Shown here: one piece after another, positions 28,615 to 42,029 of the stretch
Position numbering within the stretch: the first letter of the stretch is position 1
Layout: the number at the start of each line of letters is the position of its first letter
Assembly (NCBI GenBank): GCA_021804785.1
Contig: JAJZGY010000017.1
Span: 1 to 42,100 of the forward strand
DNA length: 42,100 bases
Origin: Pseudomonadota bacterium
GTDB lineage: Bacteria; Pseudomonadota; Alphaproteobacteria; Micropepsales; Micropepsaceae
Direction of reading: 5' to 3'
Translations under genes and position numbers: made by a program
Notes under the pieces: model-generated
Databases searched by the model: none
What the model saw: only the letters and a program-made list of their open reading frames with translations
Told to the model about the DNA's origin: nothing

Positions 28615-29204
28615 GTCTGTAGCATGCCAAGTTCGCGCAGAGATGCCAGCAATTCGAAGAGTGGAAGGCCAAGAACGGTGAAGTAATCCCCTTCTATTGC
28701 TGAAAACAGCTGCGCACCGAGCCCTTCAAGATGATAGCAACCCACACATCCCAGGATGGCATCGCCTTCAGTCCGCAGATAGGCCTCAAGAAAGGCATCG
28801 GAAAATGCCCGCATGGTCAGTCGGGCCTCTGTACAGGGCTCAGCCAGAACCTGTCCGTCACGCACAAGCGCCGCCGCACTGATCAGACTGTGGCTGTGCC
28901 CACGCAGGGCATGGAGTTGTCGCGCTGCGTCTTCAAGATTGCATGGTTTTGAGAAAAGCTCTCCGTTCTGCACAAGGAGCTGATCTGCACCGACAATCAC
29001 CTGCCCGGGTAGACGAGAGCTGAGCGCAAAGGCCTTCTCGCGGGCAAGCCGCTGGGCAATTTCACGCGCGGAGTGGCCCTGGCGCTGAAGCTCCGCGCGC
29101 AACGGGCCCTCGTCGAGACCTGGGTTTACGCTCGTGTGGGTGACACCTGCCGCAGCAAGAAGGCGTGCACGGGTTGAACTCGTGGAGGCCAGTATGAGGC
29201 TCAT
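28611..29204 (-). CDS. maf: Maf-family nucleotide pyrophosphatase
   Basis: Maf proteins hydrolyse canonical or modified nucleoside triphosphates and are linked with septum control. The 197-residue product opens with LILASTSSTRARLLAAAG (about 3-20), has VIVGADQLLVQNG near 69-81, and AILGCVGCYHLEGLGAQLFSAIEGDYFTVLGLP near 150-182. The EGLGAQLF form resembles the YceF-like (m7GTP) group rather than the dTTP/UTP group; that subtype call is inferred. Overlaps of 4 bases join it to the PPSRP gene and aroE. Confidence 0.93.
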   Translation of the reverse strand: MSLILASTSSTRARLLAAAGVTHTSVNPGLDEGPLRAELQRQGHSAREIAQRLAREKAFALSSRLPGQVIVGADQLLVQNGELFSKPCNLEDAARQLHALRGHSHSLISAAALVRDGQVLAEPCTEARLTMRAFSDAFLEAYLRTEGDAILGCVGCYHLEGLGAQLFSAIEGDYFTVLGLPLFELLASLRELGMLQT

Positions 29205-30025
29205 GGGACCGGGTCCTTGCGCTCCGTGAGCAGGTTGAGAACGGCCGCTGCGGTTTCTTCCACGGAGCGGCGGGTGACATCGATGGAGGGCCAGCCATAC
29301 TGCTCAAAGAGTTTACGGGTCTGGGTGACTTCTGAGCGCACAGCTTCAAGGTCCACGTAAGAAGTATCCCGGACCTCTCCCAAGGTATTTAGACGGTTGC
29401 GCCGTACCTGAACGAGACGATCAGGGGAGGCCCAGAGCCCGACCACAAGCGGGCCTTTGACAGTGAGAAGTGGTTCAGGGACAGGAAGTCCGGCTACAAT
29501 CGGGACATTCGCGGCGCGCACTCCGCGGATCGCAAGATAAACACAGGTTGGTGTCTTGGATGTGCGACTGGCACCTACGAGGATCACCTCGGCGTCGGCG
29601 AGGCGGTCAACTGCCTGACCATCGTCGTGGGTGATGGTGTAATTGAGAGCTTCAATCCGCTGCAGATAACGGTCATCCAGGCCGTGCTGAGCTCCTGGGC
29701 GATGCGTTTCGGCGGCGCCGCCAAGATAGGATTTAAGCATGCCGATAGGTCCGTCGAGGACACCCTGGAATGGCACGCCGAGGGCGGCACAATGCAGTTC
29801 AAGTTCCCGCCTGAGGTCCGGGTTGACGACGGTAAAATATACTGGTCCTGGTTCTTCGCGGATATGGCTGATGACGCGCTCAAGCTGGCGGGAGGAGCGC
29901 ACCAGGGCATAGAAATGCTCCAGCACATCTATGCCTTCGAACTGGGCACAGGCGGCCTTAGCGATGGTATTCAAGGTCTCGCCGGTTGAATCTGAGACCA
30001 GATGGAGATGAAACCGCCTGTTCAT
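29201..30025 (-). CDS. ppsR: Pyruvate, phosphate dikinase regulatory protein (PPSRP/DUF299 family)
   Basis: Members are bifunctional Ser/Thr kinase-pyrophosphorylases that switch pyruvate phosphate dikinase or PEP synthetase. The 274-residue product begins FHLHLVSDSTGETLNT (6-20), and has the P-loop-like GASRTSKT at 151-158, followed by TCVYLAIRG. Whether the target is PpdK or PpsA cannot be told here. It is the first gene of the minus-strand run and is divergent from hemE; in Caulobacter the chromosome origin lies between hemE and this gene (RP001/DUF299). Confidence 0.93.
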   Translation of the reverse strand: MNRRFHLHLVSDSTGETLNTIAKAACAQFEGIDVLEHFYALVRSSRQLERVISHIREEPGPVYFTVVNPDLRRELELHCAALGVPFQGVLDGPIGMLKSYLGGAAETHRPGAQHGLDDRYLQRIEALNYTITHDDGQAVDRLADAEVILVGASRTSKTPTCVYLAIRGVRAANVPIVAGLPVPEPLLTVKGPLVVGLWASPDRLVQVRRNRLNTLGEVRDTSYVDLEAVRSEVTQTRKLFEQYGWPSIDVTRRSVEETAAAVLNLLTERKDPVP

Positions 30026-30329
30026 AGGATGAGCATCTTTGCTTCTGGATTACCCCCAGCTCGTACACATTCCATCATGGCAGGACCACACCCTTCAACA
30101 GCTCCGACCTCCAGGCAAACCATTTCATCCCCAGGGGAACCAGAAACGGTGCGCTCATGGTGCACCACTGGTCCCAATATGTGCATGACGAGAGCTGACC
30201 CCTGCCCCGGAGAAAGCCCTCTGAAGTCTTGTGTCCCAGCACTTTGGGTTCTAGAGCTGGTCCTGCTCCACCCATCCATGCACAATTCACAGACCTAACA
30301 TCATAAACAGAATCCTTAGGAGTCTTTCT
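30026..30329. other. Candidate chromosomal replication origin (oriC)
   Basis: This 304-base spacer between the PPSRP gene and hemE sits at the place of the Caulobacter origin. Sequences related to the DnaA box TTATNCACA are present, though imperfect: TGTGCATGA at 30180-30188 (opposite strand, 8 of 9), TCGTACACA 30061-30069, CCATGCACA 30276-30284 and CAATTCACA 30283-30291 (each 7 of 9). A GAATC (GANTC) site is at 30310-30314, and 30281-30330 is AT-richer than its surroundings. No perfect box and no strong AT-rich unwinding tract is seen, so the call leans on gene order and direction. No gene is seen in it. Confidence 0.6.
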
Positions 30330-31370
30330 GTGGTAGAAGCTGAAGCAAAGAGGCTTATACAGGTTCTCGATGGAGCTGCGGTATCGCCACCCCCGGTCTG
30401 GCTGATGCGGCAGGCGGGTCGCTATCTTCCCGAGTATCGCGCTTTGAGGGCGAAGGCGGGTTCGTTCTGGACCATGTGCATGGATCCTGAGATGGCGGCC
30501 GAGATCACGCTGCAGCCGATGCGGCGCTTCGGCCTGGATGCAGCGATCGTTTTTTCGGACATTCTGGTCATAGCGTATGCTCTGGGGGCGACTGTGCGTT
30601 TTGAAGAAGGCGTGGGCCCGCTTTTGACCCGTTATGAGGAGATCACGCACATAGACCGGGATCCGGCGAGTTGGCGACAGAAACTGGCTCCGGTCTATGA
30701 CACGCTGCGCTTGGTGCGAGAGGGGCTCAATAGCGGCAAGACGTTGATCGGCTTTGCTGGAGCACCATGGACGCTGGCAACTTACCTGGCAGAAGGTGGT
30801 GGTTCGACGGACCAGCGCGCGGCCAAGCTCTGGGGCTATCGCGATCCAGAGAGGTTTCTGGAAATGCTGGAGCTGCTGAGCGAGTGCGTCGCCGATCATC
30901 TGATAGAACAGCTGAAGGCAGGCGCTGATGCGGTGCAGATTTTCGACAGCTGGGCGAGTGGACTGTCTGCCGATTGTTTTGAGGAGTGGGTGATCGGGCC
31001 GACGCAGCGAATCGTAACGAGAGTGCGCAAAGAGATCCCGAACGCACGCATCATCGGGTTTCCCCGAGGAGCGACTTTGCAAGGCTATCGCCGTTACGCA
31101 GAGGTTTGTGGTGTCAACGCGGTATCGCTGGACACAGCCGTACCACTTGACTGGGCAGTGGAGATGTTGAGTCCACTCTGTGCACTTCAGGGGAATGTTG
31201 ACCCGCTTCTCCTTCTTGCGGGAGGCGAGAGGCTTGTGCGCAAGGCTCGCGAAAGCTGTGCACTGACCTCAGGTAAGGCCTTTATTTTCAATCTTGGTCA
31301 TGGCGTAGTACCCCAAACGCCGCCAGAACACGTCATGGCCTTGCTGCAAGCGGTCCGGGCACCTTTATGA
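30330..31370 (+). CDS. hemE: Uroporphyrinogen decarboxylase
   Basis: HemE removes four carboxyl groups from uroporphyrinogen III to give coproporphyrinogen III in heme synthesis. The 346-residue product has RQAGRYLPEYR (27-37) and the catalytic Asp77 in VFSDILVIAYALG, then FAGAPWTLATYL near 138-149 and a DSWASGLSADCFEEWV segment. Start is GTG 30330 with AGGAG 7 bases before. Its stop overlaps hemH by 4 bases. It is the first gene to the right of the candidate origin and reads away from it. Confidence 0.97.
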   Translation: MVEAEAKRLIQVLDGAAVSPPPVWLMRQAGRYLPEYRALRAKAGSFWTMCMDPEMAAEITLQPMRRFGLDAAIVFSDILVIAYALGATVRFEEGVGPLLTRYEEITHIDRDPASWRQKLAPVYDTLRLVREGLNSGKTLIGFAGAPWTLATYLAEGGGSTDQRAAKLWGYRDPERFLEMLELLSECVADHLIEQLKAGADAVQIFDSWASGLSADCFEEWVIGPTQRIVTRVRKEIPNARIIGFPRGATLQGYRRYAEVCGVNAVSLDTAVPLDWAVEMLSPLCALQGNVDPLLLLAGGERLVRKARESCALTSGKAFIFNLGHGVVPQTPPEHVMALLQAVRAPL

Positions 31371-41984: not shown

Positions 41985-42000
41985 TGTTTCACGTGAAACG
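41985..42000. other. parS centromere site 1
   Basis: TGTTTCACGTGAAACG matches the parS consensus TGTTTCACGTGAAACA at 15 of 16 positions; the core GTTTCACGTGAAAC (41986-41999) is a perfect palindrome. ParB binds such sites near the origin and loads the segregation complex. It begins 4 bases after the mnmE stop. Confidence 0.92.
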
Positions 42001-42013
42001 TTCGTCGAGAGAA

Positions 42014-42029
42014 TGTTTCACGTGAAACG
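42014..42029. other. parS centromere site 2
   Basis: A second TGTTTCACGTGAAACG with the same perfect 14-base core (42015-42028). It starts 29 bases from site 1, both between mnmE and mnmG. Paired parS sites beside the mnmG-rsmG-parA-parB cluster are typical of alphaproteobacteria; parAB itself would lie outside this window. Confidence 0.92.

Follow-up and report, generated by a model that had tools for sequence, protein, structure and literature searches.

The replication origins of Caulobacter crescentus (Cori, 404 bp) and Rickettsia are described as flanked by the same gene pair, hemE and COG1806 (ppsR) (PMC1914354). Among the alphaproteobacterial genomes surveyed, parAB lies close to ori in almost all, and the placement of dnaA near ori is not conserved in two orders (PMC8116508). 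The basal unwinding system (BUS) is built from tandem DnaA boxes, a C-rich spacer and a tract of 3'-GAT-5' trios with a period of three (PMC8287927; PMC10721633), and Asn187 of Bacillus subtilis DnaA contacts the trio adenine (PMC10721633). DnaA-trios were not found in 15% of the genomes examined, where deviant trios were suspected (PMC8287927, Pelliciari et al. 2021).

The stretch analysed here, ‘the window’, is 42,100 nucleotides long and constitutes an entire contig (C144) of a 3.29-Mb draft genome in 171 contigs. Its intergenic region at 30026-30329 is very probably the place where chromosome replication starts, an origin of the type that alphaproteobacteria have between hemE and COG1806/ppsR. 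The origin is of a known kind and in a known place, and it is the recognition module that is unusual. The features of the locus are the following.

29201..30025, minus strand: ppsR (DUF299/COG1806; NCBIfam NF003742, 305 bits)
30026..30329, unstranded: ppsR-hemE intergenic region of 304 bp, the proposed oriC, from box density and the gene pair
30061..30069, plus strand: DnaA-box-like site TCGTACACA, 2 mismatches to TTATNCACA
30180..30188, minus strand: DnaA-box-like site TCATGCACA, 1 mismatch, the best consensus match in the gap
30228..30256, plus strand: candidate hemE promoter (TTGTGT, 16 bp, CTAGAG), proposed from conservation
30276..30284, plus strand: DnaA-box-like site CCATGCACA, first of a tandem pair, 2 mismatches to TTATNCACA
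30279..30318, plus strand: conserved module of unwinding type, with tandem DnaA-box-like sites followed by a short C-rich spacer and a period-3 tract, from the EM motif and the matrix
30283..30291, plus strand: DnaA-box-like site CAATTCACA, second of the tandem pair, 2 mismatches to TTATNCACA
30299..30314, plus strand: candidate DnaA-trio-like period-3 tract CAT-CAT-AAA-CAG-AAT-C, a degraded version of the lineage CAT/CTT tract
30310..30314, unstranded: GANTC site (GAATC)
30320..30324, unstranded: GANTC site (GAGTC), identical in 4/4 aligned sequences
30330..31370, plus strand: hemE (NCBIfam TIGR01464, 369 bits)
41985..42000, unstranded: parS-like site, 1 mismatch
42014..42029, unstranded: parS-like site, 1 mismatch

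A first-pass annotation had described a 304-bp gene-free gap with flanks reading outward, and this is borne out by the NCBIfam assignments of ppsR to the minus and hemE to the plus strand. Maf, aroE, coaE and dnaQ follow leftward with ppsR, and the rightward set comprises hemE, hemH, hemJ and rho. The four DnaA-box-like sites that the annotation had placed at 30061, 30180, 30276 and 30283 all exist there, each of them weak with one or two mismatches. Its remark that the AT content is not striking holds for the gap as a whole (47%, contig 39%) but not for 30292-30329, which is 63% AT, a value matched by just 0.3% of the 38-mers of the contig. Likewise, the GANTC site that it gave at 30310 is present, and the second one at 30320 had been left out.

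Comparison was made with a lineage defined by a ‘same genus’ label, which covers HemE identities from about 47 to 83%. ppsR and hemE are divergent in 28 of the 37 genomes under this label and apart in eight, and the contig is too short in one (G036). By locus, they diverge around a gap of 199-304 bp in 36/37 cases (L001-L037). The set of 30 lineage gaps was obtained by dropping L029, where the contig stops short of ppsR, and six loci from genomes already represented. The set from other families comprises 44 loci with ppsR beside hemE, out of 60 fetched, seven of which bore the ‘same genus’ label.

The gap contains eight nine-mers with at most two mismatches to TTATNCACA, the four first noted included, which is the maximum on the contig. 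This cluster is above chance: 500 first-order resamples gave a mean of 2.29, with a fraction of 0.002 reaching eight, and contig windows of equal length hold 1.22 each, with a fraction of 0.001 reaching eight, the gap's own windows counted. Three of the four noted cores are conserved in the relatives G020, G005 and G029. The core at 30061-30069 is preserved in all three as CGTACACA or CGTGCACA, and that at 30180-30188 (TGTGCATG) is present in G020 and G005 and absent from G029. The tandem pair at 30276-30291 has a pitch of 7 bp and an overlap of 2 bp, and the position of its first box is mostly TCCACA across the lineage. Boxes with at most one mismatch have a median of 0 per gap in the lineage versus 2 in other families, and weak boxes are the usual state in the lineage. 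Cori, which shares the flanking genes with the Rickettsia origin, likewise has weak boxes and is described as having low affinity for DnaA (PMC4468827).

The likeness to Cori does not extend to its regulatory sites. CtrA sites of the form TTAA-N7-TTAA are missing from the window gap and from all 30 lineage gaps (5/44 in other families), and the IHF consensus applied here matches nowhere in the window gap. Control by CtrA or IHF, as judged by consensus, was rejected because neither type of site occurs in the gap, and membership in the Caulobacter/Rickettsia subtype with CtrA and IHF sites is not claimed. The lineage gaps are also shorter than the 404 bp of Cori. GANTC is about three-fold under-represented on the contig (46 versus 149 expected) and enriched in the lineage gaps (83 versus 27.9 expected), with at least one site in 30/30; the other families' gaps hold 125 versus 73.4 expected, with sites in 41/44. 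The gcrA gene was detected in the genome. CcrM methylation would be expected to give such a pattern, and taken together the GANTC sites and gcrA suggest that the origin is coupled to CcrM/GcrA. In 21/30 lineage gaps, GANTC is fused to TTGA, which resembles a -35 element and would belong to the hemE promoter; the window has TTGTGTC in this place. The candidate promoter itself is based on CTTGA[AG]T, found in 19/30 lineage gaps; a consensus promoter scan did not detect the candidate at 30228-30256 and returned a single match, overlapping the boxes.

Unsupervised EM on the 30 lineage gaps returned one 40-bp motif, TCCACAAYTCACAG-CCC-AAA-CATCATCTTCATCATC, which lies 5-15 bp upstream of hemE in all but one. 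The exception to these 29/30 is L014, where a similar stretch can be recognized by eye. A test matrix built from 26 gaps, to which neither the window nor its two closest relatives contributed, scored 41.1 bits at 30279, and the next separate site in the window scored -11.7. A pattern derived from the module occurs once in the draft genome, and its reversed control 0 times. Scores are in bits for the 26-gap matrix and in nats for the EM motif, the genomes with hemE elsewhere and the complete genome G027. Across 37 lineage modules, namely the 29 gaps with an EM score above 10 and the eight genomes with hemE elsewhere, positions +8 (C), +9 (A) and +11 (C) after the second box are invariant (37/37).

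The position of the module directly before hemE and downstream of the candidate hemE promoter would also suit a leader or regulatory element of hemE, either an RNA element or a DnaA-controlled promoter, rather than an origin. This is very improbable given the eight relatives in which hemE lies elsewhere (G009, G011, G014, G022, G024, G027, G028 and G061). All eight (loci L242-L249) carry the module at ppsR, followed by a hemH-like gene, with scores of 8.7-35.2 against -9.5 for the best of 160 shuffles. Conversely, the regions of 1.9-2.3 kb that precede hemE at its other location have no module in any of the eight (best -8.8 to -20.6). Hence, the module belongs to the ppsR locus, and the leader explanation was rejected since the module stays at ppsR once hemE is apart. 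In other families, moreover, the matched module is found anywhere from 17 to 248 bp upstream of hemE, counting sites with a score above 10. A known RNA element was rejected because no Rfam family attains its gathering score; the single match, SNORA48, has 16.9 bits versus a gathering score of 50. Replication starts beside dnaA in many bacteria, and the draft genome groups dnaA-dnaN-recF-gyrB on a separate contig (C113), so that the ppsR-hemE gap might be merely a DnaA-binding region and the origin might lie beside dnaA. That contig lacks a clear skew switch, and neither a parS-like site nor the module (best -15.8 bits) was found on it; with no signal there from skew, parS or module, this placement was rejected as highly unlikely.

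The ppsR-hemE origin is further favoured by base composition and by the partition genes. A single changepoint in G minus C is best placed at 30318 on the contig, with a mean of -0.002 per base to the left and +0.066 to the right. Against an origin, the skew left of the gap is about zero (-0.003) rather than negative, and the cumulative minimum of the contig is at 21835; the skew switch is thus that of one contig with a flat left side. At its right end the contig has mnmE and the start of mnmG, with the two near-perfect parS-like sites in the gap between them. At up to three mismatches, 0.05 such sites are expected, and one of the shuffles reached two. The end of the window shares 127 identical bases with a contig (C46) that carries mnmG-rsmG-parA-parB, and this overlap places parA-parB about 14-16 kb and parS 12 kb from the gap. 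One further exact parS is present on C46. The first-pass annotation had proposed the gap as oriC and had named a skew minimum or marker-frequency peak clearly elsewhere, for example beside dnaA or parAB, as evidence against it. The proposal stood up to the tests possible with the draft genome, namely parS/parAB, the changepoint at 30318 and the module at ppsR. Neither skew nor parAB points clearly elsewhere, with parS and parAB found close by on the right.

Two complete genomes extend this picture. G027 has hemE at 2.07 Mb and ppsR at 3.516 Mb. Over 40 sampled stretches, its ppsR module is the top site (35.2 versus 0.3 for the next), and exact parS sites occur solely at 3528191 and 3530172, which is 12 and 14 kb from ppsR. 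Polarity of KOPS-type motifs, scored with the E. coli motif, is 41 at ppsR and -33 to -35 at hemE, by which hemE is rejected as the origin. Against ppsR, the KOPS-type peak of 59 lies at 3.62-3.72 Mb, 100-200 kb away, and the GC skew is slightly opposite to a ppsR origin (right arm -0.007, left arm +0.0085). G044 has kept ppsR-hemE with a gap of 668 bp. Its skew is -0.096 before the gap, +0.008 after it and +0.039 at the contig start, and flips back near 1.6 Mb. Exact parS sites at 3590320 and 3592363 are 13-15 kb from the hemE gap, with sampling toward the contig end reaching 3625000. On the assumption of a circular contig, dnaA would be about 136 kb away from this gap. At the level of sequence, the case for the origin comprises its position, its conservation, its independence from hemE, the neighbouring parS/parAB and the divergence of DnaA.

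EM on the 44 other-family gaps gave TCCCCGnTTATCCACAGGCAT-CCA-CTA-CnA-CTA on the hemE side, often followed by an AT-rich stretch, with a score above 10 in 38/44; the CTA units in it correspond to the 3'-GAT-5' trios of the literature. The side of the gap, the layout and the C at every third base are the same in the lineage. However, C follows the box at +6, +9 and +12 in other families and at +8, +11 and +14 in the lineage, and the triplets are C-N-A in the former and C-A/T-T in the latter. Runs of at least three CAT or CTT units within the last 330 bp occur in 18/30 lineage gaps versus 3/44 others, whereas those of CTA, CCA or CAA occur in 3/30 versus 24/44. The window tract has just two CAT units. 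Among families chosen for a low-scoring DnaA, mostly no clear module was seen by eye.

The module resembles the BUS (PMC8287927; PMC10721633) in its tandem DnaA-box-like sites, C-rich spacer and period-3 tract on the expected side, and most lineage triplets retain a middle adenine on the lower strand when the box is taken to define the register. In that register the lineage tract reads mostly 3'-TAG-5', and in the G-first register 3'-GTA-5', rather than 3'-GAT-5'; the overlap of the window boxes by 2 bp is a further difference. The published BUS rule was run in a rewritten single-box form and not with the authors' program, and called for a box with at most two mismatches to TTATCCACA, a spacer of up to 16 bp and at least three consecutive 3'-NAN-5' triplets. 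In this form it is satisfied by 10/30 lineage gaps (shuffle mean 2.0, maximum 4) and 14/44 others (shuffle mean 5.0, maximum 9). The window gap fails it even when three box mismatches are allowed, its tandem boxes having three mismatches each to TTATCCACA. Membership in the published BUS is therefore rejected for the window, which is called BUS-like and not BUS; this failure lowers our confidence in the origin itself very slightly.

The first-pass annotation had hinted that DnaA binding may be unusual, and this fits a strongly diverged lineage DnaA. Out of 29 lineage genomes, 26 yielded a full DnaA, two (G017, G018) fragments and one (G025) none. The 26 full proteins score 350-399 bits with TIGR00362 versus 533-584 for 30 from other families, and the window DnaA (394 bits) is among the lowest of a class sample of 144 genomes. 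A quick tree unites all 27 lineage rows with a support of 100, and the stem leading to them carries 2.77 changes per column; long-branch warnings arose elsewhere in this tree, and its joining of the lineage to G094 is unreliable. Residues were mapped by alignment to B. subtilis DnaA (PDB 8btg). The equivalent of Asn187 is Arg in 27/27 lineage proteins (residue 206 in the window DnaA), and Tyr (28), Phe (1) or His (1) in the 30 others. Likewise, the lineage has Leu for Ile190 and His for Phe218 in 27/27, and has lost the phosphate-contacting Lys222 in 27/27 (Ser 26, Gly 1). Arg202 is replaced by Lys in the lineage and others alike, Glu228 is unchanged, and the lineage box-binding domain is ordinary by eye. 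The changes at Asn187 and Lys222 are a further departure from the BUS. Among 19 further DnaAs, mainly low-scoring picks, one (G104) has Arg. The hemE gap of G104 (L227), a distant family, carries CATCATCATCATCATCTT, a six-unit CAT/CTT run. It is possible that this combination is an independent parallel to the lineage.

We infer that the gap works like a BUS, but with a tract, and with DnaA residues expected to grip it, that differ from the usual. DnaA would bind the weak boxes across the gap together with the tandem pair at 30276-30291, and would be guided onto the adjacent AT-rich period-3 tract at 30299-30314. The duplex would then open toward hemE, followed by helicase loading. Melting at the period-3 tract is somewhat more probable than not.

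Whether the tract and DnaA have changed because of each other is a further matter. One tentative reading, which we put below an even chance, is that the code for origin melting has been recoded naturally, and that lineage DnaA and trinucleotide tract have co-evolved, each changing in response to the other. On this reading, Arg would have replaced the equivalent of the adenine-contacting Asn187, and the tract would have changed from C-N-A to C-A/T-T and shifted by two bases relative to the box. About as likely, with a chance close to even, is that the location is right and that the CAT-type tract and the changes in DnaA have drifted independently of each other; the tract would then be a loosely constrained AT-rich, C-periodic element and the lineage DnaA simply fast-evolving. 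Drift accords with the acceleration of the whole lineage DnaA along its stem, with the middle base being variable in other families too, and with a window tract that is degraded and fails the BUS rule; the DnaA/tract change, moreover, rests mainly on one long branch. Drift is harder to reconcile with the invariant C and A positions of the lineage modules, with the opposite run types of the lineage and the other families, and with G104, the sole other sampled family with Arg, having its CAT/CTT run. The DnaAs of G150 and G071, on the other hand, are accompanied by CAT runs despite Tyr at the Asn187-equivalent. Co-evolution is thus a tentative inference that one parallel (G104) supports and to which there are two exceptions (G150, G071). 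Among the matches listed for the ‘DnaA-trio’ literature, also in combination with Caulobacter, the titles and abstract openings name no alphaproteobacterial trio variant.

Several independent signals, which include the natural experiment of genomes with hemE elsewhere, fix the origin of this alphaproteobacterial lineage. If the recoding is true, the lineage would be an actual example of the ‘deviant DnaA-trio’, so far only suspected (Pelliciari et al. 2021). It combines a tract that may be deviant with a DnaA that is altered, and may serve as a concrete, testable case for how far single-strand recognition by DnaA can drift.
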